Assembly (NCBI RefSeq): GCF_036370855.1
Contig: NC_088103.1
Coordinates: forward strand, 9,487,404-9,551,403
Direction of reading: 5' to 3'
Origin: Dromaius novaehollandiae
Lineage: Eukaryota > Chordata > Aves > Casuariiformes > Dromaiidae
Length of the DNA: 64,000 nucleotides
Positions 15,816 through 46,260 of this stretch are shown piece by piece. Under the pieces are notes generated by a model. The model made no database searches and was not told where the DNA came from. It worked only from the letters and a program-made list of their open reading frames with translations. The position numbers and the translations under genes are program-made. Position 1 is the stretch's first letter. Every line of letters starts with the position of its first letter.

Positions 15816-16952
15816 CTGTAGGAGCAAGTGCGATGGCACGTAAGTGCACGAAGGACATACATGTGAGACGTTCATCGCATCCAAGCGTTTCCAGCTCTGG
15901 CCCACGAGGGGAGCCAGCTCGGCTCGGGAGCCACTCGGTGAAGAACGTATCATCCTGAGCAGCGGCCTCAGGATTTGTTTACTACGTCTGCGCTGACTGC
16001 CTGAGACTTTTTTTTTCTTTTTCTTTTTTTTAAATTGCATTTCAAATCAATTCTCAGTAATACCCCGGCAGAAATCTCAGGTTGCTCAGTTATTATTAAC
16101 ATTTCACGTGCAGCCACCAGGCCAAGCTGCACTCAGAAAACAGCTGAATTTGCCCATTTGCACATCTTTGGGCAAGCGGGTGGAATGCAGACGCAGCTGA
16201 CATGCAGCGAAACACGGATAAGCCACGGTAACCCTTGCTAAAAGCTTTGATTGCCTTCCCAGTGAGTTAATTTAATTTGCCTTTCCGAGACCTCAAGGTG
16301 CCCCTGCTGACACCGTTTGCCACGAGTAGAGGGACCGTGTTTAAGCCACCCGCGAGATGGAGACCTGTTGAGAGGTCACAGCAGGATCCTCCGGCCCCTC
16401 GCGCACGGGGATGGGAGGTGGGAGGTGGGAGCCCAGCCAAAACACGCAGCGGTGGGGACGAGCAGACGGCTTACCAGCATCCTTCCCCATCAGCCGCTGG
16501 ATATAACGGGGCAGTTTGGAGGGCAGCCGCCGGGAGCCTCTTAACACCAGCCCTCGCACGTCGTTCTGCATCGCCGCCACCGCCGCTAGCTTCAGGCCTG
16601 GGGGGGAGAGGCGCACGCTCCGGTAACGCGAACCGCGGCGTTTAGCACAGCCAGCAGTTATCCAAGGACACTTGGCGAGCTCCTGCCCGCCGCCGCGATG
16701 CCGCTCTGCCGCGGTGGCCGGGGAGCACCGGCACCTCCGCGACCGGCGTGCCCCGGCTGGCGGCAGCAGGATGCAAAGGGCCGGTGCCGATTCCCCGGGA
16801 GACTCGTCCTCTCGGCGAGGCGGCGCCGGCACGAGCGGCGTCGGGGTCAGCGTGCCGCTGGGGAGGGCGGGCGGGCGGGCGCGCTTACCGGGCAGCCTGC
16901 GCAGGTGGTCGTGCGCGATGCCGCAGCACAGCTTGACGGTGGCCTGCAGCAT
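14647..16952 (-). CDS. StAR-like START-domain protein (STAR2-type paralogue), complete, 287 aa
   Basis: StAR moves cholesterol to the inner mitochondrial membrane for steroid synthesis. Coding exons, 5' to 3': 16889-16952, 16475-16597, 15670-15815, 15354-15512, 15073-15257, 14907-15000, 14647-14739. That is seven exons and 864 nt, with no break; human STAR has seven coding exons and 285 residues. The start MLQATVKLCCG matches human MLLATFKLCAG, and GPRDFVSVR is identical. I call it a paralogue because similarity over the rest is moderate and because, as I recall, true STAR lies elsewhere (human 8p11, beside FGFR1), whereas this gene sits beside ADAMTS14. A second StAR gene (Star2) has been reported in fish. 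The last intron has a GC donor. Confidence 0.92.
14901..14906 (-). promoter_or_regulatory. GC-AG splice donor, StAR-like intron 6
   Basis: Exon 6 ends GACCTGAAG and the intron starts GCAAGG. No GT is available at the homologous position. The acceptor at 14,741-14,740 is a normal AG, and phase 0 joins DLK to GWIP exactly as in human StAR. AG|GCAAG is the usual context of functional GC donors. Confidence 0.8.
16475..16952 (-). CDS. StAR-like exons 1-2: mitochondrial-type leader
   Basis: Exon 1 (16889-16952) gives MLQATVKLCCGIAHDHLRRL plus PG. Exon 2 (16475-16597) adds 40 residues, including LVLRGSRRLPSKLPRYIQRL. The first 60 residues hold many Arg and Lys and very few acidic residues, as expected of a cleavable mitochondrial targeting sequence. 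The ATG has G at -3. Exon 1 ends in phase 1 with the donor GTAAGC. Confidence 0.9.
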
Positions 16953-23000: not shown

Positions 23001-24410
23001 ACGTCTCTGTGGTTGCATTAAAACACAAAAACAAGAAACCTGCACCTCCTCCAGAAATGAAAATTTCCACCTCCCCGGACTCTGGCAGCCACAAAACCAT
23101 GCATTAAAGGAGGGGGGATTCACCTTCTCCCTGGGGAACCTTTCCCTGCCAGCTGCAGATGTGCTCCCTCCTGACCGCTTTGACAAGCGGGGAGGAAATA
23201 AGGCAGTGCTTGGGGTACCAGCTTGCAGAACGCGCTCTTGGGCTCTCTGAAACTCATTCATTTACAAAAGGCAGGGTTTTTTGTTGTTGCTTTTAAACAA
23301 GACCATTTGGACTTCCAGACAGCCCTTCTCCGTGAAGAGGAAGAGTTCAGGCTGACGAACCTATGGGGTCTTGGGGCAGGCCTAGATCCTCAAGCCCTGG
23401 CCCAGAGCAGTGGGGTGCTCCTTGCTGTTTGGTAGCGGTTTCTCTCATGGACTCTTCTTACGCCCTAGTTTCAGCATTTTCCTTTTTTTTTTTTGTTTTT
23501 TTTTTTACTATTGTCAGTGAAAGATGGCTGTGTAGGAATGCAGCAGGGCCCTCGGCAGCTCACGCTGAAGAGCGGGGACGCGCGGCAGGAGGGGAGCTGT
23601 AACCCAGGCCTGAAGCGCGCCGATTCCCCTATTTTTCGTCCGCCGTCAGCAGGAGGTTGCACACCTCGGAGTTGGCTCTGTGCAGGGCAAACTCCCGCCC
23701 AGGCACGGTGCCCCGCCGGCCTTTTCGCCTAGTGCTGACTTGGCTCCCAGCGGACTTGGAAACAGTGAAGATCTCTCTGTGGGCAGAGCAGACTGGTCAG
23801 GAGGCTGTGCTGGTGGACCGCATCCATCTCCCACACCAGCGTATTCACACTCGGGGCTTTCTATTTCCAGAAGACTTCATGGTCTGGGCATGGCCTTTCC
23901 ACCCACCTCACCATGAACTTGCCCAGTCCTTCCCCAGCCTCCCTCCCGGTTTTGGCCCACCCCGCTCAACAAGCGTGGAAATGTTAATTCTCTCCTCTCC
24001 CAAGAAGTCCCAGGTCTTTTGTTGGAACTTCAAAAAGGGAAATTTCACTGCTGGTTTCATTTATAACATGGTTGAATCCTGTGGGGTTTCCACAGTAGGT
24101 AGAACCACGTTGCTTTTTAGGTGGGGAAGAAATAAGAGATGTTTTGGGTATCGTCTCACTCCTAGCCATGGGCTGAAATGGAGAAGCTCTTATTGGGAAG
24201 AGTATGGGAGAATGAGTGGGATCTGTCTGTCCGAGGTACCCGTGCTCCTTACTTGATCTTTGTGCCCTGGACACCTACAGTAAAGGCTGTCCGAGACCGA
24301 TAGATTGTATTGGCCCCTCTGAAAGATACCCAGCAGAGTGCAAGAAAGCAGTGCTGCTACATCTGGGGTCAGGAGATTATTATTAGCAGAAGGATAAATG
24401 GTTCCTGCGT
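17030..24410. other. Intergenic region between the StAR-like and MTTP-like genes; no gene recognised
   Basis: No exon with recognisable similarity is seen on either strand. GC-rich patches at 18.6-19.3 kb and 20.3-20.96 kb carry open frames of 218-230 codons on either strand, overlapping in more than one frame. I judge these to be low-stop-frequency artefacts. A T-rich tract (T with one G) lies at about 23,482-23,508. The 21.0-22.2 kb part is AT-rich and featureless. Confidence 0.5.
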
Positions 24411-24709: not shown

Positions 24710-26357
24710 TTAACTGCGTGCCGCCGGAGCTGCTGTTCCTGCGTTCGGAGCCAGGGACAGGTACGACCTCAGCCCAGGGAGGAGCTCGGATGCCTGCTGG
24801 ATCGGGACGTGAGGGTGACACCGGTGCAGAGCTACTGCGCGGCGAGGCGGCATCCCCAATCCCTGGGCCTGAAGCCCTGGCAGTGTCCTTCACCAGAGCT
24901 CTGGAGCTTACCTGTATGGGACCTGGTCCTCTCTCAGCTGCAGACACACCAGCACAGGGCGCTCAGAAAACCGCAGGACCGTGTCAAAGTGGATCGAGGT
25001 CTCCACCTCAGTCTGGCTTCTCATGGTGGCTTGGAAGAAAGGGGCGTCCACTTCTGTCTGGAAATCGATGGCTAGACTTCCCCTGCAAGAGCAAGGAGCA
25101 CAGGTCTGGTCACTGGGCAACGAGCTGTGCCTGGGCACCCTGCAACGGCGCTCCGCAAGCCCACGATCACCTCAATTTTAAGTCTGCCTGTGGAAAGGAA
25201 GCATGTAATCACTGCCCACCAGCTCCCCACCCACACCTTCGCTCTCCCTGAGCACAGGCTTGGCTGGACACAGTGGGAGAAGGACACGGGGACAGTTGCA
25301 AGGCTGTCTAAGATGGGCAACCCTCGCGCAGGGTGTTAAGACCCTCCTGGGTAGCCTGCATTCCCAGAGCCAAACCATTTCCCATCCACTGACCTCGTGC
25401 TGATGCTGCTTTTCAGTTCCTGCTCCCATACGCTCACGTCCATGTCGGCTGAGATGTCAAGTCCAAGCCCACCCTGGAGTTTGACCACCACTTGTAGACC
25501 AGACTGTAGCGGGATGACCTGTGAGATGGAAAAGGCAGTACTTGCTCTGAGGCTGGACACACAGCTCTTGGCCGAGATGCTGATAAAGGAAATGATGTGA
25601 GGTTACTGGGACTGTCTAGTCTAATCCCCCTGGCTGGGTTTGCGTGGTGGGAACTAGAGCCATGGGCGTCCCGTGGCAGAGCACAGCCACCCAGCTGCTC
25701 TACCAACCCTAAAAGGCCTTTGGCAGTGCCATCTCTCTCTCAGATTTGGGTCCACGGTGAATAACAGGGCACGACCCAGCGCACTTCACGTATGGGGACT
25801 CACTACGCTTTGACATCCATGGCCCACTCTCGCAGCCAGAGCGGGCAGAGGCAGGTTGTCCCTCCACCCGTTACCTGGTGATGGTCCACCAGCAGGAGAT
25901 TCCCTCTGACCAGCCTTGTGGGTCCTCCACTGCTTGAGAGGACCTTGGCCATCAAGTCTGCATATCCCTGGAAGAACACGACTGGCCGAAACTGAACGTC
26001 GAAGAAAGTGGCAGACATCCCAGCCATGAGCTCCTCTTCTTCCAGGGTGTTTTCTCCCAGCATAGACTCCATCCCTCGTGCTTCAAGAGCGACCTAAAAC
26101 ACAGCGACAGAGCCGTGTAAGCTGCACGGAGCAAAGCCAGAGAGCTGGTTCGATGCACCGCGATGCTACTTGCGATGCTACACTTGTTGAACCCCTTTGC
26201 GTGGCCAGCACCTGGCCAGTCTCCGGGCAGCACACCTGAGCCAGGTGAAGCCGATGGCCGCGGCCGAGCAGCGAGAAGTCGGAGAGGCACTTCCTCAGGA
26301 ATCCACCCTCCGTGAACAGCAGCTCCAGCCCGAAGGTGGAAAGCAGGTCCTGGGTGA
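24710..26357 (-). CDS. MTTP-like exons 14-18: C-terminal lipid-cavity sheets and diverged tail
   Basis: Exons 14-17 carry FDVQFRPVVFFQGYADLMAK (human [20 protein letters not shown]), LQGGLGLDISADMDVSVW and a conserved end, LVCLQLREDQVPYR. Exon 17 ends in phase 2 with GTAAGC. The only suitable continuation I find is 24,710-24,767, giving 18 residues and a stop. It has no similarity to the human tail and lacks its cysteines. Exons 14-17 are secure; exon 18 is a guess, and a different last exon nearby cannot be excluded. Confidence 0.8.
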
Positions 26358-29300
26358 CTGAAAGACAGAGAGGTGCCCGTGAAGAGGTCCGCACTGCAGC
26401 CATCGCGGCGGGATGTGACACATGGCTTTTTGGGAATGAGTCACAGGACCACAATGAATCACAAATGCTCGGATAACAGCTGCAGGGGAGCAACACTGAC
26501 CAGATAGCAAAAAGCCCCCGGGCAGCTGCGGGAGGCACTGGCTGAGAGCTGCAGATCCTGGCGTGACCACAGGCAACCTGGCTGATGCGTATGGCTTTCC
26601 CTGTGCCTGGTGCAATGGAGCTAGAGCTTGGCAGAGCAGGTGAGTGCTTGTAAAAAGCTCATCCAGGTTTACTGTGGAAAGCGGGGGGGCCACTGGGGGT
26701 GTCTCAAAGCAGGCTCCTGAGAGCTCCTTGGTAATGTTTAAGCCTACTCAAGAGATTGTGTTGCTAGTCCTGTAGGGCTCTTGCGTTTATGCTCAGGGTG
26801 GATAAATATATTAGCAATAAAACATCTGACAAAGCTAAAATATTCAGAGGGAAAAGCTTCTCTGCACCATCTTTTTCCATTCTTACAGTACTTGGAGGAT
26901 TTAGCATTGCTGTATTTTTCTTATGGATGTTGGTTACTTTGCTTCTGCACCCCCCCTAAACAGAGTTTTATAAATTCAAGGCTAGAAAAAGATGATTTGA
27001 AGAGGGTTAGAAGTGAGAGCTGACAGGTGAAGATTTAAGCAGATATCTAGCAGGCATTAATTGCAGTGTCTCTGAAGTTTGATGGTTTTTTTATCCCAGC
27101 CCAAGGATTCTCTGCTTTGAATCACTTATTAAAAATACCTAAGGAACCGACTTATCAGGGAAAGCACAGAAACTCCCTCCCACACGCTACCACTGGTTTC
27201 ACCTTCAGATGAAATTCCTCTCCCAAATGAGCAGGATTTGGGGAAAGTATGTGGCCCAGCTCATGTTCCGCTGAAAGCGGGAGGTTGCGAGGAAGCCAGA
27301 GGAAGGCGTATATGTATGAGGAGAGAGTATGAATATGTAGGCGTGACACCTGCTCTTGGACTCTAAAGGTGCTTGTGGGAGATGCTCAGAAATCTCGGAC
27401 TAGGTTTTGGGGGATTTCTGTAACCCAGAGGCACCCGCTGGGCCTTTCGAGGGGAAGGGGAACAGTGTTGTCCGTGTCCCCTGTCACCTGTCAGGGGTCC
27501 TGAGAAGGCAGAGGAGACGCCAGCTTTCGAGAAGTAGTTGTAGTTATTTATCCGTGGGTCTCTCATGACTTCCTTCACTATCTCCCTGGAAACAAGAAGG
27601 AAAAGGTGTATGAGGACTAGGAAGGAGGGAATGGGAATTTGCAGTCAGAATTCAATATAAGCCAAATTCATCACCAAAAAACGTTAGTGGTTGTTAAAGA
27701 AAGCTGTACAAAGAAAAGGAGGAAATGAGAATTTAAAAACTGCAGGAAAAAATGCAGCCTCCCAACTCCTTGTGCCGCTTGGCTGAAGCAAGCGTGTCAC
27801 AGGGCACGCTGATTTGTGGAGTGCTTTTTGTTCCTATTTTACAAGGCAATGATCCCCAAAGGAGCATTCGGAGCAACTGTGTGAATGCTTATGGGGTGGA
27901 AGTCCCCTGTAAATCCCGCTAGATGTGAATACGTATAACTGGCTTGATTTCTGCAGGTATTTCTCTGAATTCCTGACTGCCCAGACAAATGTGAGCAAAA
28001 AGGAAACGAGCAGACTAGGACCATGCTGGAATCTCTCTCTGCTCTGGTTTATCAGAATAAACCATTGAAATGTTTTTGGGAAGCTTCTGCCTCGCTCGGA
28101 AACTTTTGTGCTCGGTTTGTTTTGTGCACACAGAAAGATTAAGCGAGTTACAAGTTGTGCGCGGTGCTGCAAGGCAGAGCTTTGGCCTCCAAGGACTCTG
28201 CTGCTGGGCTCCTGCTGAAGCACCGAGCCCGGGCGCTGCTGTGCTGCGGGACCGGCCGAGGAGGGGTGCCGGGTTTGGGCTCGCTTGGCAGCACCTGCCT
28301 TAGCAGCCGTGCAGTCGTCTTCCTCCCACTGCTGGGAACTACCAGGCAGCCCTGGCACTGATGCAGCGTTGCTGCGCGGTGCTGCCAGACCTGATGTTGA
28401 CCCAGCTCTGAGGGGCGGGCAGTTCAAAAGCCACAGCTGGGGTGTAGAGGAGGAAAAAGATGATGTAGCCTGACTGGGGGGGGGGGGGGGGGGGGAAATG
28501 CGACTTTTCTTTCCTGACCCACCTTGCTGGGTGGTGTTCAGCACGCAAACTGTTCTGGATCTTCAGCCGCAGAAGCGTTGCCAGTTCTGTTTCCATCTCC
28601 GTGGTGGCCAGTAGGATGTTGATGACATCCATGGGCAAAGGCTCGTGGTCTAAGAGGATTTCTGCAGCAGCCAGGCGGCATGTTTTTTCATAGCTCTTCC
28701 TCTTCTCGTGGAAAATCCTCCTCATTGCTCTCTTCACCTGATGCGAGAACACAGTTAAAGCTATGGTGTTATGCCCGATGACGTGCAAACGGTGGTGGTC
28801 AAGTCTTTCGGGCTGTGCTCTGCATCCCCAGCCATCGTGTCCCAGTTTAACCGGGAAGCTTCGTTTCATACCTCGCTGGAGACGTGTTGTGTGGGGAACC
28901 TCTGCAGGGCAGCGACTGCTGCAGCCGTGACCGCAGCGGGGCCTTCCTCGGTGTAACGCAGGAGGGTAGGGATGCTTTCGGGCAGCAAGGCGTTCCTCAG
29001 GGCCATCAGGTGAAGAACCACCTCTGACTCCTCCTTGGCGTTCCCTAGTCCCTGCAGGATGGTTTCTGCTCCGCGCTCCACCTCCTGGTTTGGTTTTGCA
29101 AGAGGGCAGAAGCAGAGGAGGAGGAGGATGAAGTGCAGGATATGTTTCAGGCAGCCTCAGAGGAAGAGGAGGGATGGCAAGGCTAAAAAACCAGAGCACG
29201 GAGGTTTGTCGGGGAACCCACCTGTGATCCGCACAGCTTCTGCCGGCACAATTTGCTAACGAGAGAGCCTATGACAATTATCCCTGTCTCCCGGACCTCC

Positions 29301-32300
29301 AGTGCTAACCGCTTCCCTCGGAGCTTGTCCTGGGAGGAGGAAAAGGGGTTGAAGGAAAAGAAGGGAAACGGAAAAAAGAGAGAGAAGGCGTAGGCTTTAG
29401 CTATTATCTCAGTGTTTACTAAAGAAGTAAGAAGGACTAGCTCTTACCAGCCTTGAAGGAGGTCTGATCAGATAAAATGCCGATTTTCACAGTAGGTAAT
29501 TAAGCTTTTAATATCTGTAATACACTGATATAAAGGACTTTCTGCTGAATGCATTTGCTCCCATTGCTGGTGTCCAGTTAAAGCCACTCAGTGCCCGGGA
29601 CCGTGAGGGAGGGAGAGAAATGCCTCTACTTACTAACACCAGGCTGAGAAGCTCCTTTGAAGGCCGGGGGGAGAAGGCCGCCGCGTAGAGAAACTTCTCC
29701 AGCAGAGACCTGGGGGTCTTGCCGAAATCCAGAAAGCTGGAGAGAGCTGCCAAGGATGCCGCTGACTGGGCGGCCACTGCTGCCTCGACGAAGAAGGGGC
29801 TGCAGCGAGAGAGGGATGGTCAGAGCAGTCCGAGGCGGAGGAGAAACAAGGCGCCTAGTGTGGTGCTGCTGGGATCGGTGACCTTGCCCCAGCCTTGGCC
29901 CTTGCAGAGGACCTTGGCTCCCCTTCCCCAGGCCAAGGCAAGCGAGCAAAGGTTGAGTCCTTTGAGGGATGCGGGGACTGCGTGCACCTCCAGCGGGGCC
30001 GAATGTGACCCCCAGCCTTTCTAAAGCTGCTAAAGATAATCCCACTTTCATTTGCTTTTTCCTACTTAAAAGCACCCTGAAGTTTCAACTGACAGGTTAA
30101 AAAACCTAAGAGGTCAGGACTTTTGCAAAGAACTTTCTTTAAAGACAAGCTCATTAGCACTGGCTGCCGAGCTGGTATTATCTGTGCGTATCACAGCCGT
30201 GAGCTTTGCTCTGAACTTGGTCACACCTAGCATTTTGCTGCAGACAGGAGCCCGGCCCCGGCGTTCACACTCGCAGGGGATGGATGACAGGGCCGTGGCT
30301 GCGTGTTCTGTAAAGGCCAAGCCTCCGCCGATATTTCCCAAAGCCTTGCTGGAGCATTTGCTCTGCTCCAAAGCCCACTGCTCGGCGAAAACAGGCTGTA
30401 TGGTGGTTGCAAAGAACAGGCACGGAGGGAAAAACAGGAGGCCGTTTGCACTACTGAGGATAAGCTGGGAAAGCTCCTGCACAGCTGCCTGGGCTAGGTA
30501 CGGTTTATGGACCAGCATATCCAGAAATGGCCCTACATCCCAGGGTCCTACGTGCCATTTACTGGTATAGAGCCATCGGGGGCAAGAGAGGGACTGGGAG
30601 TCTTACACCATCTCCCTCGGAGCTTTCCTCAGCAGCTGCAGGATATCTTTCTTCTTTGCTCCGTGCAGCATGTGGATGAACCTATGGAACTGCCACGTTG
30701 TTGACACCTTGGCGATGTCCATTTTGACCTTCTGGCTGTCAAAAGTCTTCAGATAGGTTTTGAGCTGCAAAGGCAAGGTTTGTTTTGTTACAAGCGTCAT
30801 GTGCGATTTAGCCTTGCTCCCCGGGATCCTGAAACGTGGGACAACGTTTACAGTAAGTAAATACTTCGGAGTGCAGGGAGCTGTAGGGACACTGCATCCA
30901 GGCCATGCAATTGCCCCCAAATAGAGGGGGCCACAGAACAACTGCTACGCTCTCCCACTCCCACCACTGACGTCTTGCTGTACAGGAGCCAAAAAGCAAA
31001 TCTGTAACATGCAGGAGAAACTGAGGGCATCGCCAATGTCCATAAGGCACTTCGATTCCAGCTTCCCTAAGGAAAATGCCTGGAGAATACTTGGAGGCAG
31101 AAATAATCCCCCATTCGTCCTTGCCAACCTGACCTGCAGGGTGGGGGTGGAGGAAATATTTCCTGATCTCAGCCCTATGACGAGCTTAACCCTGACTAGA
31201 CATACCAGCTGTGCCTCTGGTTACTTCTCCCCTCACAGAAATGCAGCTGTGTCTCAGGGAGAGAGGTCTCCCTTCCACAGCTTGTAGCAACGTTAGGCAC
31301 AGCTCTTCAGGAGAGAAGTAACAGCTCAGGCTGAAGATGGGCTCTCTCTCTTAGTCTAGGCAAGAAGCCAGCCTGGAAGCCATCTCCTGCCTGTGTTGTG
31401 GGTGTCTGGGCGCCCAGCTGGGAGAGAAGCAGGAGGTGTGTTTTGGGGCTGTTCGGTGGCACTGACCGAAGGGCAGTGGGTGCAGACCCTCCGGTAGTGC
31501 AGGCAGGCCATGCCCAGGGGCCGGTGCTCTCCCTCCGTGCCAGCCAGCGCGTCCTCGAGGTTTTGTCCGGGCACCTCTGCTGGACCCGGCGTGGAAGAAG
31601 ACACGAGCTCAAGCTGTTGCCTGTGGAGGGAGAAGCAAATGGGAACATCATTTGCACCCTCCTTTGCTCAGAGGCTGGTTGGATGCATGCAGGTTTGGAG
31701 AAGGAAGATATACAGAGGGAGAGGAGATATTCTGGGCAGGCCGAGGCACAAAGGAAGAGAAGGGGAAGCTCTTGGAGACAGATTTGCAGACGTGTCCTGC
31801 AGCCTTTTTCTTCCCCAGGCTGATGACAGCTCACTTGACTAAAGCAGTGGGTCTCTAGTCTCCACGCAGTGAGGTTTCCCAAGGGCCTCTGGACCTCTTT
31901 TGGTTCCCACTGTGCCTGCATGCTCCCACGAGCTGCACATCCCCTTGCGGCTCCTCTCTCCAGAGGAAATTTCTGGTTCAGGGGATGGATTCCATGGGAC
32001 GGGATGCAGGGAAACGGCCAGCTATGGGGGGAAAGCAGTCAGACGGGTCCTGTCACTAAGCTGATTTCTGTGCGCCGTGTGCCTAGCTGTTGTGCTGCTG
32101 CATCTCCTGGCTGCCTGCGTCAGGCTGTGCTGGCTGAGCCGGCATGAAAGCAACGAAGAGCTTCCATCTTCAACGGATGGATGGTCATCCCGCGCTGGGC
32201 TGTCCGATTTAGGCAGCTGCCCAGGGTCATCACTCACCTCGAGTTGATTTTGACACCAGTGGTGGACCTCAGGCTCAGAGACACAACGTGGCTTTCCTCT

Positions 32301-35300
32301 GCGAGCACTGACTGGATGAGGTTGTCCTTCACCAAGTACAGACTTTTGCTGGTGGGTTGCCACTGGACTCCAAAAATCTTTGATTAAAAAAAAAAAGAAA
32401 AGATCAACTCTTTCTCCTTTGATTTCCCTTTTCTCGCTTCCTGTCTCCCCCTTCATCTTCAACTGTAGGAAGGGAAAACGAGGAAGGACCCTCCTGGGAG
32501 ACGGCCGCCCTTGGTGAGGACCACGACGCGCAGGTGCTCTGGTGCCCGGCCTGACATGTGGAGGAAGACTGGTGACACCATGTGGATACTCTCTTCTATT
32601 ACATTTATTTCATCGTGTCACTGCGGCTCAGCTACAGCAGACAACAGGGGAAGCGGAGCCGGGAGGGTCTGCTGAAGGGAGGAGATGCTCCTGCTTTCTG
32701 AGGCTGCTGGCTAGAAGCCGTGCAAGCTGCAGGTGAGTTCCTCACAAAGCAGTACCCTCCTTTGGGTCCATTTGGCAGCACTAGCTATGCAGCTGCCCCG
32801 GCACGAGTGTCTCGCGTGGGAAGAGGTACCACCTGCAAAGAAAACCTGCCTTGTCCCAATGAGCATTTGCAAGGACTTTCTCCAAGCAAAAGAGACAGCT
32901 AAGCAAAAATAATCACCGATGAACTTATGCCAAAAATGCTTGGCTTTTTTGCTATGCTGCGCAGTGACCTTGGGGAAGCTCTCTGCTTTTTTCCGTCTTC
33001 CTCCTTCCGAAAGAAGTGACGCACACGCTGGACTTCACCCCTTGCCTCTGCTTCATCTCTCAGCCCTGGTGTGCAGAGGGCTGATAGCTGCAGGGGATGT
33101 TATCGGAGCACCTGGGGCTGCATCTGGGAGTGCTGGGGGGGAGCTGGCTGGCAGCAGGCTTGGAGACCCCTTAGGGACTGGGGCAGAAGGCTGCTTCCAG
33201 CTATAAGTGGGTCACTCGGGCCAGGGACTCAAAGACCACCCATAGTAAGATTTGAGGAAGACCCCAGTATACTCGACAGTCACCAGCTGAGTCCTACCAC
33301 CACCACGAGAGCAATGGACTTGCCTTGTTTACGGAGGAAAACCCAAATTTCGGCTTCGTGCAGCTAAGGAGATCTTTTGTCTTTATGGCTGAGTCGTTGG
33401 AAACGGCATACGTGACTTGACAGCTCCCAGAAACATCCTCCTGAAACAAAATTAAGTGTAAGAAATCACGGCGAATGGTGAGCGGCTGTCATTACAGCTT
33501 GTGAGAGCCTGAAGAAAATGATCTGTGTAGAGAGCAGACGCAGTAAAAGACAAACCCAGTAAATACAAAAATCATCGAGAAGCTAGGAACGGGGCTGTAT
33601 TTTGCAAATCTGGTCCTGAGGCTGTGAAGTTTGAAGTCTGTGTCCAATTATCTGCTCATAGCTGCTAGTATGGCTACGGCATCAGATTGCATATGTAAAT
33701 CAAGTAACTGCCCCAATGGGGCGTTTAATATCCCAAAATCCAGTTGGGAAGGATGTTAGCCTCATTGCCTTTTCAGGCTAAACCAGCGGCAGCACCTTTG
33801 TGCCTGGACTCCTGAGCCTACAGTTTTGAGGTTATTTGGTTTGGTTCAAAATTCACTTCTGAATAGTTCAACTCCGAAGAGAGGGATTTCCCTGCCGTTT
33901 GCTGACTGCTGGATGGGCTGTGTGAAGTGACTCCCACTGAGCAAAATGCCTTGTAGATATTTTTTTTTTCCTCTGCTCTTCCTTTTGCCCAGGGGATAAT
34001 GATTTTCTAAGAGGGCCTGTTCCTGAAAATCATCTATCTATCTATTTATATATATATATTTTTAGTTTGTTCTCACAAGCCCTTTTTGGCAGGAGCAGTG
34101 AGGGTGTTTGCACAGCACCTCCTGCCCTGGAGTGTCCTTTCCAACAGTCATCTTCATTCACACCCCAGGGGCAACCAGAGCAGCAAACCCAGGTACGTTA
34201 ATCCTGAATTTTGCCTCTTCTGCTGAAAATCTTGGGCTAGCTCTGCTTCAGGGCTGGCTTTACTGCTGCAGCGTGGTTTCCAGGCCCGGCTTTCCTGCAG
34301 GATTTGTCCTCCGAACTAACCCCAGCTCAGCACCTACCTCCACTGCTGTGCCAGGATGGGGCTGGACCTGGAGCAGACTGATGAGGCCTCGTTTCAGATT
34401 TGAGATCAGGGGACTTTCTGCTTCATTTCCGTAGAAGGCTTTGACCTAGAAGGATAAAACTGGTGTCTGGCTGTGTGGCAGCAGGCTCTCTCTGTTGCCT
34501 TCTCTGCTGGAAGGTGTCTTCCCCTGCAGCCTAAGCGGTACCGGAAACCCTGCAGACACCTGGAGATTTTGCAAGAAAGGTTATATCCCTAAATAGCGCA
34601 GGCTTGACTTTGTGGATTTGTGCCTGCAGATCTTCTATCTGTTTTTAAGCAAAGCTTTCCAATTTTCCCAAACTTTAGGAGAGAGGAAGGTCAGAAAGGA
34701 GGTCCCATCCTAAGATTAAGGCCTAGGCACTGCTAAAAGAGGGGTGCTGGAGCTTCTCCTGAGTCTGCAGCACTGACGCAGTTTGGAGCATCTGGGTCAT
34801 GCTGGGCTCTGGGAGACCGTACGTTCTTGTGTTTGTGACTCTGGTCAGTTCGCGGGGAGCACGGGTGGGCGCAGGAGTTTCCAGCTCACCTTCCCGCTGT
34901 TCCAGGAGATGAAAACCGGCTGCTGGAGCTCTGCTTGGGTCTCCTCGCTCAGTGCAATCTCCGCGGATGGGTCTCCAGCGCTGTCCTGACTCCTCTTCTG
35001 CTCTGGTGCATGTTGGGCTTTTAGGTCTCGGATCTACGATGGAGGAAGAGAGAAGAAAGCAACGACAGGACGCGTGCTGCCAGGTTCCCCATAGCTGCTG
35101 TGCATCTAACCTGCAGGTAATGCCCTTTGTCACAGAGCTCATTTTTCATATTGCTTGGGTTCAAAATGGAAGGGGGTAAGGGAATAAAACCCCACTACTT
35201 ATATGAGGCCTATTGAGCTGCAGTGGATTTACCATTCATTATTAAAAAAAAAAAAAAAAAAAAAAAAGGTCTGATATGAGAAGCACTAATAACCCTTTGG

Positions 35301-36794
35301 CAACCTCCCGTACCTGCACCTGGAGAAGCTCTTCCCCTGCTTGATCCCTCCAGAGTCGGTGCACCTGAACCAAAGCTTCAGCCTTCAGCCAGCTTCCCTG
35401 CAGGGACAGCCTGGACACATAATCTAGCTGGACGTCCAGGGAATAGCGGTACTGATACAGGATCCCGGGCTGGAATGAAAGCGGCTGCAGATTCCCTAGG
35501 GAAAGAGGCAAACATCGAAGTCCTGGCATGCATCGGTGGTTCTTGGTCCCTCTGCTTCCTGAAATACTTGCAGACTGCACTGCTTTGCCTTCTGAAAGTG
35601 TCATTTTTCACCAAGCGCTAGGTAGGACTGACATGGAAGAATATGAGAAGGTTATCCTGCAAAAATATTTGTGCCTGCAGTTTGGTTTTGGTTTTACTCA
35701 GGTTACAGTAGACAAATACTTCTTTCAGACAACACCCACTTCTGTAATAAAGGCAGGTTAGCGGATATTTGGGCATTTGCAGGGTGGCAGTTGATTCCTG
35801 GCCAGGTTTCCAGGCCTGCCTTAGAAAGGATGCGCAGGGTGGGTGCCCTGCTCAGGGACTTTGGGACTTTTTGAAGGTCCCCGTGAAATACATTTCAGTC
35901 CTGAAGCGGAGTCCCCTGAACATGCCCACACATGGGTGAGTTGTTCTGAAGGGTCTTTCAGCGCTCTGCATTAATAGAGACAACACTAGTGTGTTTAGCT
36001 GAGAGAGGAGCCATGTCCTATTCTTCATGTCGCACCTTTTCCCTCTTTTTCCCCCCCATTTGAAGAGTAGCTGTGTCAGAACTGCTCACCCTTAATTATA
36101 TCACTGGCCTTGTGATATGGTTAAGTGAAGTCACTGGGGCAGCGTTAGATCAAAACTCCTCTTTGCTTTACTCTTATTTGCCTTGAATTATTTGCAGTCA
36201 TTTCCTTGTTCATATGCAAACAGAACTGGGGGAGCTGGCCAATTTCTAGGGTCACTTGAAATGCTCCTCCCAATCCGATGCTCTACCTGGGCTTCCGAAA
36301 CGGTTTAGAGTGTGGCTACTTTTAGTATAACTTTCAAACTAGGCTTTAAAATCCCTCTGGAAAATTATCGCTTTCTCCAGGAAGGGAAAAAGATCTGCAT
36401 TTGATGCAGTCAGGAGAAGTGAAAGTCCAGCTCACCCCCTTGGGTTTCCCTCTGCGAATTAGGATTGTTCCCACACTTCTGCGCCGCGCGCGGTCTGCAA
36501 AGCCCCAGCTTTGCTCACCCCCGGAGAGCACTTCTCGGGGTCCCGAAAATGCGACCACCCCGACCCGTCCCCGAGCCCGGGAGCAGGGCAGCCTCCGCGC
36601 TAGGTCTTGGTGGCCGGAAGGCAGAGCGGTGGCCCTGCACTTCCCTCGCGGAGGTGGCCCCAGGGCTGCGTGCGCGGGGGACGAGCAGCCCGGGCCGCTG
36701 CGGGAACCAGGGTGCAAAGCCTCTTACCTTGCGCTGTGCTCCCCCAGGACAGGCAAAGCAGGCAAATGCATCCCGAAACCACCTGCGGGTTCAT
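24710..36794 (-). CDS. MTTP-like large lipid-transfer protein (MTTP paralogue), about 854 aa
   Basis: MTTP with protein disulfide isomerase (PDI) loads lipid onto apoB in the ER. Exons 5' to 3': 36728-36794, 35314-35495, 34890-35033, 34338-34445, 33324-33440, 32238-32377, 31467-31620, 30607-30764, 29634-29799, 29222-29329, 28872-29084, 28523-28737, 27488-27585, 26236-26357, 25875-26093, 25394-25518, 24912-25082, 24710-24767. Phases join without an internal stop. Exon count (18) and boundaries follow human MTTP (894 aa). It is probably a paralogue, since MTTP itself lies on human 4q and this locus is beside ADAMTS14. The start has a good Kozak context (CCACCATGA) and a signal peptide. The last exon is uncertain. 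Intron 5 has a GC donor. Confidence 0.92.
25588..25645 (-). repeat. Possible degraded CR1 3' end in an MTTP-like intron
   Basis: The + strand reads GACTGTCTAGTCTAATCCCC then CTGGC. This resembles the reverse complement of the CR1 3' UTR (...CATCTAGTCCAACCCCCCTGC...). The match is short and diverged. Confidence 0.35.
27488..30764 (-). CDS. MTTP-like exons 8-13: alpha-helical domain
   Basis: Helical repeats show the best conservation: HGAKKKDILQLLRKAP, AALSSFLDF, VIGSLVSKLCRQKLC (the human Cys440/Cys445 pair), ALRNALLPESIPTLLRY and RRIFHEKRKSYEKTCRLAA. Exon 9 starts in the second half of a Val codon (GT|C), which fixes the exon 8 donor at GTAAGA rather than at the overlapping GTGTAA. In MTTP this domain is the main PDI contact surface. 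Confidence 0.92.
28476..28495 (+). repeat. Poly-G run (20 G)
   Basis: Twenty consecutive G on the + strand, C on the transcribed RNA. The run lies in the intron just downstream of MTTP-like exon 12, starting 28 nt past its last base. The true length may differ, because homopolymers of this size are error-prone in sequencing. Confidence 0.9.
31467..36794 (-). CDS. MTTP-like exons 1-7: signal peptide and N-terminal beta-barrel
   Basis: MNPQVVSGCICLLCLSWGS is a hydrophobic signal peptide. The vitellogenin-type N-sheet follows: GILYQYRYSLDVQLDYVSRL, then VKAFYGNEAESPLISNLKRG, the counterpart of the human VKEFYSYQNE...ENIKRG segment. A cysteine pair 20 positions apart in exon 5 (GSCQVTY...LLSC) matches the human Cys174-Cys194 disulfide. 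Exon 7 ends VCTHCPS, matching HCKGCPS. In MTTP this barrel contacts apoB. Confidence 0.9.
33319..33323 (-). promoter_or_regulatory. GC-AG splice donor, MTTP-like intron 5
   Basis: Exon 5 ends GTAAACAAG and the intron starts GCAAGTCC, the ideal AG|GCAAGT context. The homologous human boundary falls at the same residue (PNQ|VLG; here VNK|IFG). A nearby GTAAAC 9 nt upstream could act as a GT donor in the same phase and would drop three residues (VNK). Confidence 0.75.
35244..35267 (+). repeat. Poly-A run (24 A)
   Basis: A pure A-run of 24 lies in the intron downstream of MTTP-like exon 2. No retrogene body or SINE is recognisable beside it, so I record it only as a homopolymer. Confidence 0.85.
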
Positions 36795-38368: not shown

Positions 38369-41300
38369 TTAGTTGGTGGGGTCGGGCTGCCTTGGCTTCT
38401 CCTCCCGGGACGAATGGACCTGGAGGACTTCTGCTGTGCCAGTGCGCGCTGAGAAAGAAAAACGCATCTGAGATGGATTAAAGTCCTGCTGAACACCGAG
38501 AAATTTAGCTCTTTGGCTAGGGTGGGGAAAAAATGAAGTATTTAGAAGAGCAAAGTGGCTGAGGCGTCTAAGGGCCTAAGTCCCATCTGAAAATGAGGCT
38601 CCAGAGTGCTTGCGGGCAGAATTTTCCCAGCAATCCTAAGAAAGGGAATTTATCCACTGTCCCACACCCAAATCCCGGCGGGAGGAAACCTGCTCCCCTG
38701 GCCTGGACTACCGCTCGCTCCCGGTGATGGGCTGGTGAGCCCCTACGTGCTGCCTCTGAAATCGACACGGAGGAAATCTTGCTGGCATTTCTTTACCTAC
38801 TCTGTTACAATCTCACGCTCATAATAAGATGGCAATGGTCTGGAAAAGTGGTCACGTAGCTGGAGAGTCATCAGGGAGGGGATTTATCGCTAGGTTCCTA
38901 AGTGAGGTCTCTAGCCTAAACCAGCCATCCAGGATCCTTCTAAAGCCAGGGGAGAAGAGAGAGGTGTCTTTGGAGGATGCCGTGTGCCGCATAGCCTGGG
39001 CACTGCCTTACAGTGACATTAATCTCCCTCTGATGGTATTTATTTAACTCCATCAATTATGTAGGAAATTTAATACCTAGCTCGGGCTTTGATGTGTGCT
39101 TAGGAATGAATCACCCTCTCCGAGTGACGCGCGGCTTTGTCGGTCGCTGGAAGGAGGCGTCCCTGCCGGAGCGCCTGCTGGGGCCCCGGGGTCCGGGTTT
39201 GCAAGGACGCCGCAAGCCTGGGGTGCAAAGTGCGTGGGTGGCAAAGGCAGTGCGTTTTAATGCCTATCCGTACCTGCTTTCTCCTCCTGTGGAACTGGTT
39301 CTTGCTTCTGTCCCTGGGAGCATCTGTGAGAGAGCGGAAGAAATCAGATGCTTTATCTCCCTGGTGCGGGTCACAGGTATGCAGGACAGGCGGCTGAGCC
39401 TGTTGCTCAGTGTTATGCTTGCTTGCGGTGTTTGTCCTCTCCGTGGTGACTATACAATGCTGTGGCTGTGGGTCTAGCCAAAGATACCGCTGCCCAGCAT
39501 CGCTACGTGGTTTACCCCTATCCTGTGCTTCCATCCCACGTGCTAACAAAGTCACAGGCCTGCCAAAAACGTTCGTGAGCTTCGACTCCGCTCCTCAGTA
39601 GAACCAAGGGGTGGGGGAATGAGGTGTTCGCGCAAGGTTAACCTGGTTAGGAGCCCCTGGTGTTTCTTTTCCCACGCGCGGGTCCGTCCTGCGTGCGCAC
39701 AGGAGCCCCGAAGGGTCGGTCCCCCCCCCGTCCTCCTGCAGAAATGCCCTGCGGTACCTGCCTGGCTGGTTCCTCCCGCCGCGCCGGTCCCTGGAGGAGA
39801 GGCCCGCGGTGGCCTGGGACGCCTGGGACCTGGCGCTGTCCCCCGTGCCTGTGCCCAGGGCCTGCGGCTGCAGCTGGAGGGTGGCACTTGCAGCCTGCAG
39901 CAGCCCCAGGACAACATCCTTTTCTGTAAGAAGAAGAGGGCAAAGAGGCAGCTGTGGCACTAGGAGCTTTGGTATTGGTGGTGTAAGCTGGCCCTCCTTC
40001 CCCCCGCTTTCTGGATCTTCACTTTTGATTTCCACCCACTTTGGAATTAACCAACTTTTATAAAATCTCTGATTTGCTAAACTTTCTCCCCAAAGCCTTT
40101 ATCTTTACCTCCTGTTTTCCTTCCTTCCAGCTTTGCCCTCCCTGCTCCAAAAATCTCTGCTTTCATGCCCACCATCTGTACTGTGCAGGGCAGGGTGAGA
40201 AATCGCACAGCCTCTGGGGATGTCACGCTCTCGGAAAGATGGCTTATGCAATATTGCAAATCTATAGACAGATTTGTTGTCCTATAAATAGTGCTGCTAA
40301 AAGCCTGGGTGCTCCTGCAGCCCCTCACCGTATCACCCAAGAGAAGCATGTTCTCCCACCTCCAGCCTGGCACATGCTGCCAGTGCAAATCCTCTTCTAA
40401 CAAACTAAATCCATGCAGTGTGGTCATGGACACCTACCTCCCCATCATCATACTTTCTTAGCTGAATGCCTTGCTGATGTCTGGAGGTTTATCTGCAACT
40501 AGCACCTAAAACTTAGAGCCAAAGTGGCTGTGCCAAATATTGGGCAGCTGAAGCCATAATAACTGGGTAAACAAATAACCCGGATAGCTGAAGCACTGAG
40601 CACTGATCATCTCCTTGGGGTGAATGGCTTCTTTAGAGCAGTAGAAATTTTGTAGCTGAAAATGCTGACCAATGTCTTTTAAAAGTGAACAGCCTTTTTG
40701 ATTTAAGGCTGGATTCCCTTGGAAAGTATCAGAAAAACCAAAAAACTAATCAGCAGCAGAACGGGCAGAGTGAAGACAGCCCTCCTGGAGACCAGAGAGA
40801 GACAATGTCCCAAAAGCTCTTTACACTCTAGGTCTGTCCAAGTGTTCGAGAGGGCCCAGGACCATAACGATCTGAATCCCGGGCAAGGGGCAGTCGTTAC
40901 AAACACAGTGATTAGAAAAACCCAAGCAGTTCCTCGTGACCCCATTTCTCCTCCCCAGGGATGTGCGCGGCAGGGAGCTTTGGGCTCCGTGAGATAAGAA
41001 ACGCTGAATTCACTCACGGCAGGCCCGGCCGAAGTAGCGAGGCTGGCAGGCTTTAAGGACAGGAGTGGGATCCTGAGCCCCAGTCCCCAACCCTCATATT
41101 CCTGGCTGTCCTCACCCCTCTGCCCGGCTGTGAGCAGCCGCTGCTGAGCCGCCGTCGAGGAGTGTGCCTGCAGGATCTGCCCCGGCGGCTCCAGCACCTG
41201 TTGGCGGAAGAGCGTGGGAGAGACGGTCAGCGTAGTCGGGTCATCGTGCCCCGGGTTGTCTGGAACACGCGACGGGTCAGCACGGTACGCGCGGGGACCT

Positions 41301-44300
41301 TGGTCACCTAGCTAGGACACCAGGAGGGACTTTGGCAGAGCTGCAAGTAGGGCGGAGGACATGGAGATTGCTGCACGAAAGCCCCTCAACTGCAAGTCTG
41401 AACACACGGTCTCGGCTGGCCGGAGGCAGGACCAGCCACCCGTCCCGGCTGGGCGCAGGCTCCTCGGGCTCTGCGTGCCTCCCCATCCAGGGGCACCTGC
41501 ACGTGGCAGGGGGCACTTGCAGGGGCAGATTCTTGCCAGAAATGTCCAATGGAAACAGCAGTGCATTAGCCGTGCGAATGCCAGCAGCAGAAGAAAGCCA
41601 GGGTCTCTCGGCTTGGAGGCAGGACGGGGCTACGCGCTTGGGTTTGAACTGCGGAGGCTGCTGCATGGTCTCCTGGCTTTCCCAGTACAGGTCTCAGCTA
41701 GCTGGGAAATTTCCAGCTCCGTTTCTAGTGTCTGATCACGCTGGGGCAGACTGGAGGGGGAAAGGAAAGAGTCTCTAAGGGCTCTGTTCCTCCCCCCTTT
41801 CGTGCACATGACGATCCTTGGTTACACACCCACTCCAGCCTCCCGTTATTCGGGAGTTTTTAGGAAAGGCCTGGAAGCAAGTGCAAAATAACTGCTGACA
41901 AAATATGCAGCCATCCCAAAGGAGGAAATAAGAGGTAATGAAGAGGACATAACAGGCCCCCAGGGGCAAATCACAGAGGCACGAGCGAAGGATGCTGGCT
42001 GCCCCTACGGAGCAGGAGAAGGCACGAGTTACTCTCCTGAGAGACCTTTTGGCTGCCATGAGGAGCCTCTCGAGGGGCTGCTTGCTTCTGCTAGCTAGGA
42101 CAGCCCGTAGCAGGTCCCACTGCAGCCGGCTGGGCTTTGAGCCAGGGAAGACCTCAGGTGGTTGCCACTCGTCCGGTCCTGCCCGCACGTGGGTGCTCCT
42201 GAGCATCCCCTGGGCACTGCCCTGGCCGAGAGCCAAAGCCGGGCACGTCCTAACTGGGAACAGAGCACGCAGTTGAACAGCGAGGCTGATTCACTGCGGA
42301 ACACATTGCCGAGGGAATCAGCAATGCTCCATCTCCTGGTAACCTCCTTCCCAGAAGGAATGCGTTTTGGGAAGATGGCTCTTCTGCAATGCAAGAACAG
42401 CCAGGCATAATTCTATAGCCCCAACACGTCCGATGACGTGATATAATGACCCGTAGTGGCTTTAAATCTTAATCAGTGCCGCCTATCTTTTCTATTACGG
42501 ACCAGCAGATTGTGAAGGCAAGTCCTACTGTCTGTCTCTCTGCCCCATCTGCTCCAGCCCTCCTTGCCTGGCCGCTCCAGTCTCTTCTGCTTACCACGAG
42601 CTCTCGGTCCTGGCAGGAGAGGGCAGCTTGCTTCCCTTCGGTCCTGGCACTCCCGCGGTACAGCTGGCGCGATGAGCGGCGAGCGGTGGCACGAGAGGGA
42701 GGTGGGATGAGCTGTCCCATCTCTGCTGGGTACTGGGTCACCCGCTGGGCCTGCCAAAATGTAAAAGCACATGTGCTGGCTGAGGAGGAGCCAAAATGCA
42801 CCAGAACGGTGCCCTGCATCCCCTCTTCTGTGCCCAGCCGCTGCCTTTCCCTAGTGGTGCTCCTTGGGTTTGACCTGGAGCTGCTCATACGTCCTGGTCC
42901 ACCCTTGCTGCTGGGCCCTTCTCAGGTGCTGGGGCCGGGTGCTGAAGGGGGGACTGTGTCAGCTCCTCTCACCCGTGTGCTGAGGCAGGACTGGCCTCGC
43001 GATTCAAGAGGCGAAAAATGACTGTGTTAAACCAGTTCTCGGTTTGGCTCAGTCGCCTTCACTTTTGCTGCTGGAGGCATTGGCTTTGAATAGTGAAGCC
43101 TGCTTTCCAGCGCCGCGGGGAAGGGGCTCCCTGGGCTCCGGAGACTACGAGTCAGTACACGATGGAGGGATGCATGCTGCGTGGGCTCCAGGGTTTGGAC
43201 GGGAGAGTTCAAAGCTGGGGCTGGGAGCAGAATTCCTCCCCCTGCACCTTTCACCCTGAGCAAGGCGCTCTTCTAAGCTTCCCTCTTCTCAAGGAGATTC
43301 CCCACGTCCCTTCAAGTCCTAAAGGACACCCGAACATCAGGACTTAGAGGAGTGATGGAGCAGCCTCAGACTGAGCGTAGTTCTGGTTTTTCTCCTTGTT
43401 GCCCCCACCCTTCCCCTCCCTCCCATGTGCCCCCCGTACCTTTTCGTGACTTGCCACCTCCTCCTTTGCCGTTTCAGCAGGAGAGGCAGCGTCAACTCTG
43501 GCGGCGAGTTCCCTCGGTTCCTCCCTCCAGGCCTCCGACAACACACCTGAGAGAATTGGAGAGCTGTGAGGAATTCCCCCCGACTTGCACCGGTGACACC
43601 CCAAAGTCCTCAAAACCCCGAGCGAAGAGACGTCCTCTCATTTCTCCCATCCAGCAGCCTCGCGAGCAGAACCGGGACCTGTTTCAGCCCAGCGAGATGG
43701 ACCTGTCCATCCCGAACCCTGCTTCGTCGGGACAACGATTACCGGAGCCTGGGATGGGGAGCGCGCTCACCTGCGGTCAGCCACGGGATCGCCTTGCTGG
43801 GGGGATCCCCGATTGGCATCTGCCTGCCCGGCCCCCCCGGGATGGGGGTGGAAAGCCGGTCCTTAATCCGGGATTGAGGCGAGAGCGGGCTCAGCGCTGG
43901 CCAGCCGTCCTTCGCCGTGCATACGGGCACGCCGTTCAGGCCTGCGGAAAAGGGGAAAAACCAGCACGGCCAGCAGGAACCCACATAAATCTCAGTGTTT
44001 CTGCTATGTCCCGCCAGGGTAATAAATCCCCTAGCGCTTTGCAGCCAGCACGGGGCCCGCAGCACCCCCCCGGCTGCTCCCGGCCCCCGCGCCCCCCACC
44101 CGCGATGTGGGTCACCCGGTGCGGGTGGGGGTTGTGGGGCGAGCAGAAGGAGCGGTGGCCGAGGTTGCCGAAGCGGGAGCCGCTCCGGGAGGGGGGTCGC
44201 GCAGCCGCCGGGCCGAGGGGCCACGTGGTCCAGCGGTGGGTGATGCCTTTGCCTTCGCACGGCCGGCGACGGGGCTCCCGAGCCGCCCCGTCTCCCCCGC

Positions 44301-44797
44301 CGCAGAGGCACCCGTGGCGCTGGAAGGGAAAGAAAAGCAAATCACTCACCCGCAGTCCCAGCCGCTGAAACCCCTGTGCCCCAGGACGACCGGCCGGGCT
44401 CGTGACACATGTGCATGTGTGTGCAAAGGAGTCCTGCAGCAAACGGCTCGTTCGGTATTTATAGGGACAGGGTGTTGTCACCTCCAGGCCAAGAGGCAGC
44501 TCCCGCGAGGAGAAGCGGGAGGCGAGTCCGTGCTGACTCCCAAGAATGTGCTGAAACGCTGAAAAAGGAGCCTGCGAGGGAAACCCCCAGAAAAACAACC
44601 GTGTGCCATCGCCACCGCGGCCCTGCTGCTGATTTTTGAGCCCAGATCAACGCGCGGCATCTGCAGCCACGTGGAGTCCGGCCGGCATCGCTGGCCGCTC
44701 TCCTTTGCTGCCGGTACCGCTCAGCGAGTCCTCCCGGCCCTGGCACTTACTGCGGCTGCTGGGAGTCGGGTTGCAGATCCCCGGGGTCTGTTGACAT
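38369..44797 (-). CDS. TBATA: TBATA (SPATIAL; thymus, brain and testes associated), complete, 313 aa
   Basis: TBATA is a poorly understood protein of thymic stroma, brain and testis; mouse Spatial has been linked to thymic epithelial cell growth and to spermatids. Exons 5' to 3': 44751-44797, 44100-44182, 43771-43941, 43440-43546, 42595-42750, 41116-41197, 39758-39923, 39274-39323, 38369-38448; 942 nt, all phases closing. Similarity to remembered human TBATA (351 aa): HNPHPHRVTHI (HHPHPQHVTHI), PVCTAKD (PVCVVRD), SEAWREEPRELAARV (SEAWKKELKELASRV), EKDVVLGLLQAA (EKDLALGLLQTA) and AEVLQVHSS (AQVLRMHSS) near the C-terminus. It lies between ADAMTS14 and SGPL1 on the same strand as in human. The start MSTD with A at -3 parallels human MATD. 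Confidence 0.93.
44100..44797 (-). CDS. TBATA: TBATA exons 1-2 (N-terminus; exon 2 acceptor uncertain)
   Basis: Exon 1 is MSTDPGDLQPDSQQP plus two bases, with a perfect donor (CA|GTAAGTG). Exon 2 must resume in phase 2. The acceptor CCCCTCCCGGAG before 44,182 does this and gives HGSRFGNLGHRSF, aligned with human PGTYCFGRLSHHSF. A stronger-looking acceptor, CCCTTCCAG before 44,319, is open in the same frame but would need a phase-0 partner exon, for example one ending at GFQRLGLR near 44,355. Human TBATA has about 45 more residues in this region, so an extra exon is possible. Confidence 0.6.
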
Positions 44798-45924
44798 TTT
44801 AGCAGGTCTCTAAGAAGGCAGGAAAGCTGCTGCTCGTTCCTGTGCCCTTAGCCACACGGCCCTCTCGATACGTGACTGTCTAGTGTTACACAGGCAGATG
44901 CTGCCCGTCACTTCCCAATCCCCGCCTAGATTTCAGCTTTGCAAAACAGCCCGTGGAAGACGTAAAACTGGATGGCCAAGCTGTGGTGCAGCTTCTGCAT
45001 GTGACGGCACCTGGCTGGTAGGGATGCCAGGGTGACCAGGGACACCAGCCGGCCCTGGGTGTGGGGCGCAGCAAAAATCAGAGGGTGTCACAGTGCAGGA
45101 TTCGCGTGTATAGATTTTGGGGCAGAGGGATCAAACCAGAGGAAGAGACCTGGTGGGCACTGACTTCACTTTGACAGCCAGATGCTTGGGATGCAAAGTC
45201 CCTGCTCCCTAGCAGGGTGACCACCGACGGGTTCTTTGCTTATGCAGGCTGAGCTGGGGGCCTGTAAAAGTCTCTAACAGCCTTTTTTAGAGGCTAATGC
45301 TTGAATATCTGGAGAAGAAGCTGAACTGTCCATTCCCCGTCTAAGCTGGATCATTCATTGCCTCTATCCTCCAGGCTGGGGGCAACCCCTCCGTGGGAAT
45401 TTGTGGATATATTGGAGAAAGCTTGAAAGAGTCCTAGAGCTCACTGGGAGCAGGTGATGATGCTCTCCTCCAGCAGCGTGCAGCACTCGAGTAAAATACT
45501 CAGCGGTAAACACAGCCTTGCAACACATGGTTTCTTAACAATTTACCATGCACAAATAATACAAGCAAAAGGCATTCCGGTAGTTTCTCTGAAAACGGTA
45601 ATCTCCCCAAACTCATCCCTCTGTGAAATAACCTGGGGACAGTTTTCTCGAGCGAGGCATCTGCAACACAGTTTAGGAGTGGGGGGTGTCGACACCTTTC
45701 CCAGCTTGGTTTCCCTGTTCAGGCAGGCCTGCCTGATGCTTCCTTAGAGCTTTTCTAATTTTTGTGTTTATCAACCCGTGCAAGCGCTCTTGCTGCAAAA
45801 AGATGTGTTTTAATGCAGAGGAAAGCCTGCCAGCCGTGCCTGCCACCTGCGGACAAGGCTGGCCACCAGGACCCTTCAGGCCAGGGGAGCCAAGCGTGTG
45901 CCCAGCATAGAGCTGATGACAGGT

Positions 45925-46260
45925 CCTGAGGGCACTAATGGGCCTTAATGGTCCTGAGCAGCCTCACCTGGTGCCCACCCACCCATCCACGCCACATTTA
46001 AGCCCAGCCCTGGCTCCTAGGTGGGTCCTTCAGACCCATTTTGTAGCCTTGGCTGCAGCCTCATCCCTGGCTGCTCCTGGCTGGAGGCACCCTGGACCTG
46101 GTTCATCCCCTTGCTGCATCTGGGGTTGTTGGTGGAGCCTGGTGCCCCATCGGGTATGTAGGTCCCCTGGGGGGCCATTAGTGTTCCTGAGACATCTGTC
46201 CCTTCCTCCTGCTTCCCCTCTCCAAGGTGTATGTGGTGTATCCTGCCATGCAAAAAGCTT
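45925..46260. repeat. Candidate dispersed repeat, family unknown
   Basis: A GC-rich segment, different in composition from its flanks, with internal near-duplications: GGGCCTTAATGGTCC at the start, repeated GGCTGC/CTGGCTGCTCCTGGCTGG units, and CCACCCACCCATCC. It has the look of an interspersed element, but I cannot name a family or define its ends. Confidence 0.25.

Follow-up and report, generated by a model that had tools for sequence, protein, structure and literature searches.

A second, intact MTTP gene in the bird Dromaius novaehollandiae, a probable orthologue of chicken MTTPL

Gene content and structure of the MTTPL locus

The region analysed here is a stretch of 64,000 bp of the Dromaius novaehollandiae genome (assembly GCF_036370855.1, contig NC_088103.1, positions 9,487,404 to 9,551,403; hereafter the window), located on the contig numbered C6, and it carries an intact second copy of the gene MTTP, which we designate MTTPL. 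MTP forms a dimer with PDI and moves lipids onto apoB in the endoplasmic reticulum (ER). From left to right, the locus is comprised of an ADAMTS gene on the plus strand, a STAR-like gene, MTTPL and TBATA on the minus strand, and SGPL1 on the plus strand (Table 1).

MTTPL was modelled by spliced alignment of a human MTTP template to the minus strand of the window, GC donors being allowed. The alignment comprises 18 exons with a score of 1410, against 254-301 for three shuffled templates and 241 for the opposite strand, and the match is therefore not due to chance. The gene has its start codon at 36,794 and its stop codon at 23,629; with the stop, the coding sequence measures 2,655 nt, encodes 884 residues and contains neither internal stops nor frameshifts; 16 of the 17 donors are GT and one, after exon 5, is GC, while all 17 acceptors are AG. 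An earlier note, drawn up from the letters of the window, had described an intact MTTP paralogue of 18 in-phase exons and about 835 residues between 24,710 and 36,794. The exon count, the phasing and the intactness of this copy are borne out, and the upper limit is exactly the start codon, but the other boundary and the protein length need correction: positions 24,710-24,767 are part of the last intron, and the true gene end lies about 1.1 kb further on. A 3' end at 24,710 is ruled out by exon 18 (23,776-23,629), which fits the human C-terminal region in the correct phase.

A 6-nt exon at 33,117 was an artefact of admitting GT donors only, and disappeared once GC donors were allowed. The GC-AG intron located 3' of exon 5 has its donor at 33,318-33,323 (AAG/GCAAGT); the MTTP gene on contig C4 has a GT donor at this place.

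Table 1. Features modelled in the window (positions within the 64,000 bp).
Feature	Position	Strand	Remarks
MTTPL exon 1	36728..36794	-	start codon at 36794, context CCACCATG; signal-peptide-like N terminus
MTTPL exon 2	35314..35495	-	spliced alignment
MTTPL exon 3	34890..35033	-	spliced alignment
MTTPL exon 4	34338..34445	-	spliced alignment
MTTPL exon 5	33324..33440	-	spliced alignment; GC-AG intron next (AAG/GCAAGT)
MTTPL exon 6	32238..32377	-	spliced alignment
MTTPL exon 7	31467..31620	-	spliced alignment
MTTPL exon 8	30607..30764	-	spliced alignment
MTTPL exon 9	29634..29799	-	spliced alignment
MTTPL exon 10	29222..29329	-	spliced alignment; Cys440/445 equivalents
MTTPL exon 11	28872..29084	-	spliced alignment
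MTTPL exon 12	28523..28737	-	spliced alignment
MTTPL exon 13	27488..27585	-	spliced alignment
MTTPL exon 14	26236..26357	-	spliced alignment
MTTPL exon 15	25875..26093	-	only exon searched singly; human MTTP at E 7.5e-18
MTTPL exon 16	25394..25518	-	spliced alignment
MTTPL exon 17	24912..25082	-	spliced alignment
MTTPL exon 18 and stop	23629..23776	-	Gly865, Cys878 equivalents; beyond the earlier note's span
STAR-like gene (STARL)	14653..16952	-	7 or 8 exons modelled; third-exon region uncertain
ADAMTS gene, 3' part, taken as ADAMTS14	2119..11100	+	name from gene order with TBATA, SGPL1
TBATA	38384..55796	-	score 403 against 227 and 193 (two shuffles); outermost 5' exons uncertain

MTTPL is a second MTTP copy

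A phmmer search with the MTTPL protein returned human MTTP with E 4.9e-176 (PDB 8eoj) and, much more weakly, lamprey lipovitellin (E 6.1e-8). Two Pfam domains were found in the protein, both above their curated cut-offs: Vitellogenin_N (PF01347; 7.3e-50, residues 30-561), the N-terminal lipoprotein region shared with vitellogenin and lipovitellin, and MTP_lip_bd (PF19444; 4.6e-81, residues 593-880), which sets MTTPL apart from the vitellogenins. In a tree of seven rows (MTTPL, human MTTP, bird MTTP and four vitellogenins), a comparison with MTTP and vitellogenin called for in the earlier note, MTTPL joined the two MTTPs at 100/100 against the four vitellogenin rows. A tree that also held an apoB row was set aside and rebuilt, the apoB model being poor (score 205, end branch 3.23).

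When the 1.468 Gb genome was searched with the profile of the MTP lipid-binding domain (E up to 1, the best candidates only being scored), the ten matches among the scored candidates fell into two loci only: six at 18.3 Mb on C4, corresponding to MTTP, and four at 9.51 Mb on C6, corresponding to the window gene. The C4 gene was modelled as well and is an ordinary MTTP, 70% identical to its human counterpart (624/890), so that the window gene is not the sole MTTP of this genome but a true and intact second copy, as the earlier note had proposed. The two copies share their 18 exons, all 17 intron phases, 11 of 18 exon lengths and the MTP lipid-binding domain, and differ in locus, in PDI-contact residues (see below) and in identity to the human protein, which for MTTPL amounts to 36-41% depending on the alignment (347/849 in the spliced alignment, 313/878 with MAFFT); between MTTPL and the MTTP of the same genome, 325/878 residues are identical.

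Identity to human MTTP, counted per domain in the spliced alignment, is 98/269 in the N-barrel, 124/299 in the helical domain, 52/109 in the C-sheet and 67/157 in the A-sheet. The conservation of cysteines claimed previously holds for nine of the eleven human MTTP cysteines (10, 174, 194, 298, 301, 440, 445, 827 and 878, not 397 and 866); the loss of Cys866 was dismissed as a meaningful change, since the MTTP of the same genome carries Ser at this position. Further residues were checked at the positions named in passages of PMC11745965, PMC10907164 and PMC7444587. MTTPL retains Asp169, Ile344, Leu435, Leu477, Asn479, Arg540, Asn604, Tyr605, Leu633, Leu643, Gly746, Gly865 and Cys878; the Asp361-Arg392 salt bridge is replaced by Glu-Lys with preservation of the charges, and Ile642 by Phe, a change described as tolerated in PMC10907164.

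Neighbouring genes

The earlier note had placed the gene at an ADAMTS14-TBATA locus, and we arrive at the same setting, with TBATA supported by alignment, the ADAMTS family by Pfam and the number 14 by gene order. Among ten open reading frames (ORFs) on the plus strand to the left, one exceeds the TSP1_ADAMTS cut-off (2e-18), and three further ORFs gave matches below cut-off to ADAMTS_CR_3, TSP1 and PLAC. A metalloprotease-motif pattern for ADAMTS found no match in the window or in the 20 kb to its left, and two TSP1 patterns found none in the window, though Pfam showed TSP1. To the right of MTTPL, none of ten ORFs matched Pfam at E up to 0.1. SGPL1 starts about 1.5 kb past the window end (394/556 identical); its placement inside the window was rejected, the alignment scoring 133 against 126 and 108 for shuffled templates. 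GC-rich tandem repeats between TBATA and SGPL1 (58,377-58,697) are possibly part of a CpG-island promoter. In human, ADAMTS14, TBATA and SGPL1 are direct neighbours, and no STAR-like or MTTP-like gene is known to separate them.

The STAR-like gene, which is absent from the earlier note, is located between the ADAMTS gene and MTTPL, 7 kb from the latter. It encodes a START domain (2.5e-10), and its spliced alignment scored 511 against 123 and 130 for two shuffles, or 540 when the genome's own STAR (C26:8.15 Mb) served as template; the STAR N-terminus and most of the exon plan are retained. The protein is 43% identical to human STAR (118/274) and to the STAR of this genome (117/274), these two sharing 208/278 residues with each other, and where the two STARs differ it agrees with human at 17 sites, with bird at 16 and with neither at 36. 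According to a passage of PMC9141715, tetrapods have a single star, and most teleosts have in addition star2, probably of independent teleost origin. The STAR-like gene is possibly either a STAR ohnologue not yet described in tetrapods or an orthologue of star2; searches of the open-licence literature yielded no paper that names a STAR paralogue in birds.

A paralogon around MTTPL and MTTP

The MTTPL locus sits in the MTTP paralogon, as members of the PPA, TET and ZU5 families, chosen from human gene maps and thus not a blind sample, are located near both genes. The two matches to pyrophosphatase (PPA) genes, the only ones, are at C6:9.38 and C4:20.10 Mb, and the eight matches to TET genes are at C6:10.7, C4:20.0 and C26:3.7 Mb. 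ZU5 genes, for which UNC5 and ANK members were pooled at family level, gave 14 matches (C6:9.89 and 13.82; C4:16.70 and 23.55; C26:7.55 and 8.78 Mb; also single places on C5, C7, C10 and C15). Passages of PMC2453138 describe a human 4/5/8/10 paralogon (the 8 member having partly moved to 2 and 7) derived from two early tetraploidizations, whose families include ADAMTS3, 2 and 14 on human 4, 5 and 10.

These paired neighbours, together with the STAR-like/STAR pair, argue for ohnologues dating from the early vertebrate genome doublings rather than for a bird-specific duplication. MTTPL and MTTP are thus likely to be such ohnologues, MTTPL having later been lost by mammals. The word bird-specific fits the gene in so far as it is absent from mammals; as to its origin, tree and paralogon favour a date before birds. 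No account of the origin of MTTPL was found in the open-licence literature. The recurrence of TET and ZU5 genes on C4, C6 and C26, and of STAR-type genes on C6 and C26, leaves a remnant of an early vertebrate paralogon visible within one genome.

Chicken MTTPL and its expression

A gene of this kind is already known: it has been annotated in chicken, and papers report its expression in laying hens. The earlier note, in treating MTTP as single-copy, overlooks this annotation. Published statements are given here as they appear in individual passages of the papers cited. In PMC6839265, chicken MTTPL (Gene 769580, Chr6) is one of 13 overexpressed genes listed as having no identified homologue in mammals, and its level is given as 7.65-fold higher in the liver of 38-week laying hens than in that of 10-week pullets. 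The MTTPL protein rises from pre-laying to peak lay (PMC8566343), and knockout of VNN1 in hepatoma cells raises MTTPL 2.08-fold (PMC10915194). In turkey, a gene with the annotation large subunit-like, possibly MTTPL, ranks among the most up-regulated genes in cold-treated muscle satellite cells (PMC9601516). While MTTPL is thus reported as induced in lay, MTTP is not: it is given as not differentially expressed in laying hens in PMC4600267, and the review PMC8398935 states that its up-regulation is not needed in lay. Both papers cite Ivessa 2013 for this point, and neither is among the open-licence papers containing the word MTTPL.

The window gene agrees with chicken MTTPL in product name and chromosome number, our contig numbering presumably following that of the chicken; matches to the lipoprotein N-terminal family form three clusters on C8, and VTG1 and VTG3 are located on Chr8 according to PMC6839265. 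From name, product, chromosome and place, rather than from sequence comparison, we infer orthology between the window gene and Gene 769580. A role in yolk or egg lipid handling, raised as speculation in the earlier note, already has expression support in print; the passages cited report no functional test. PF01347 also has two matches outside its clusters on C8 and C3, at C14:13146018-13164646 (E 4.2e-5 and 3.9e-4).

Proposed function and alternative explanations

The best explanation, to which we assign a probability of about 0.6, is that the window carries the chicken MTTPL orthologue, which is an intact MTTP ohnologue and encodes a PDI-bound ER lipid transferase for lay. Its product is predicted to be an M subunit in the ER lumen, where it would bind PDI and transfer triglyceride as well as phospholipid onto apoB, possibly also onto vitellogenin, in the liver; it would be used above all in lay, raising the output of yolk lipoprotein. 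The split between MTTPL and MTTP would coincide with the early vertebrate genome doublings, and MTTPL would have been lost in mammals. PDI binding and neutral-lipid transfer are regarded as likely. More tentatively, and with more doubt than belief, MTTPL might be seen as the laying-stage MTP of egg-laying vertebrates, an ohnologue of the two early doublings that was retained where large amounts of yolk lipoprotein are produced and lost in mammals with yolk, like the vitellogenins. Several observations weigh against parts of the preferred explanation, and are given below with the alternatives to which they relate.

The age of the gene would be different if MTTPL were a fast-evolving duplicate of MTTP that arose in the bird lineage. 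Such an origin would suit its listing without identified mammalian homologue (PMC6839265), its long end branch (0.94; the two MTTPs have 0.18 and 0.24), its slightly greater identity to bird MTTP than to human MTTP (325/878 versus 313/878) and its slightly more frequent agreement with bird than with human at sites where these differ (47 against 35). In the seven-row tree, however, a constraint joining bird MTTP with MTTPL was rejected (p-AU 0.019); this pair was chosen after the first tree was seen, the constraint joining human MTTP with MTTPL was not rejected (p-AU 0.128), and the clade of human and bird MTTP is weak (77/55, or 86/64 in the tree with the apoB row). Human and bird MTTP differ at 270 aligned sites, at which MTTPL agrees with bird 47 times, with human 35 times and with neither 188 times (p 0.22). 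A bird-lineage duplicate should show a clear leaning to bird MTTP at such sites; the 36-41% identity to human is also below the 54% given for zebrafish Mtp in PMC7444587, and paralogous neighbours occur on both contigs. Together the tree, site and identity comparisons, in which human and bird MTTPs only were compared, favour an old duplication, and an origin of MTTPL within birds appears unlikely.

A change of activity deserves more weight, without being the probable outcome: MTTPL could have lost or altered classic MTP activity, for instance acting in phospholipid-only transfer or as a vitellogenin chaperone instead of placing triglyceride onto apoB. Two of the five PDI-contact residues are kept (Asn604 and Tyr605; Met600 is Pro, Asp606 is Asn and Arg607 is Tyr), and three disease-variant sites are altered (Tyr528 is Phe, Ser590 is Arg, Asn780 is Thr). 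These changes set MTTPL apart from both MTTPs, as do Asp384, which is Pro or Thr depending on the alignment (Glu in bird MTTP), and Asp831/Lys832, which are Arg/Glu, and all of them also weigh against the preferred explanation. Leu648 is kept by one alignment and Ser by the other, and the C-terminal 30 residues, needed for PDI binding, are present with Gly865 and Cys878, human residues past 885 being unmatched. Drosophila MTP has phospholipid transfer only (introduction of PMC10907164), MTP promotes the secretion of Xenopus vitellogenin A1 (cited in PMC8398935), and in hens with early fatty liver MTTPL goes down with loss of H3K27ac as MTTP goes up (PMC10919017). Two further points weigh against the preferred explanation: MTTPL is classed as a secreted and not an ER protein in PMC6839265, and a scan of the window for estrogen response elements gave one match against 2.1 expected by chance; one for DR1 gave 11 against 10.5. 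On the other side, MTTPL keeps Leu633, Leu643 and also Gly865, where Val blocks the transfer of triglyceride but not of phospholipid (PMC7444587), and the conservation of its lipid-binding sheets equals or exceeds that of the helical domain and N-barrel (fractions above). That the copy is decaying or unexpressed in this species is highly improbable: it is known here from the gene sequence alone, has one GC donor and a long branch, but its 18 exons with usable splice sites form 2,655 nt free of stops and frameshifts, and expression is reported for MTTPL in chicken and for the large subunit-like gene in turkey (PMC9601516).

Significance

This analysis adds a corrected gene model, evidence for a paralogon and a STAR-like neighbour to what was known of the gene. 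MTP, a drug target, is essential for the loading of apoB lipoproteins, and MTTPL would offer a natural variant with which PDI binding and the transfer of triglyceride and of phospholipid could be told apart. If MTTPL is indeed the laying-stage MTP, this would explain how hens raise their output of very-low-density lipoprotein (VLDL) without raised MTTP, and a second, induced and old MTP would make this question directly testable. MTTPL and the STAR-like gene would then represent a small block of lipid-transfer ohnologues that is missing from mammals.

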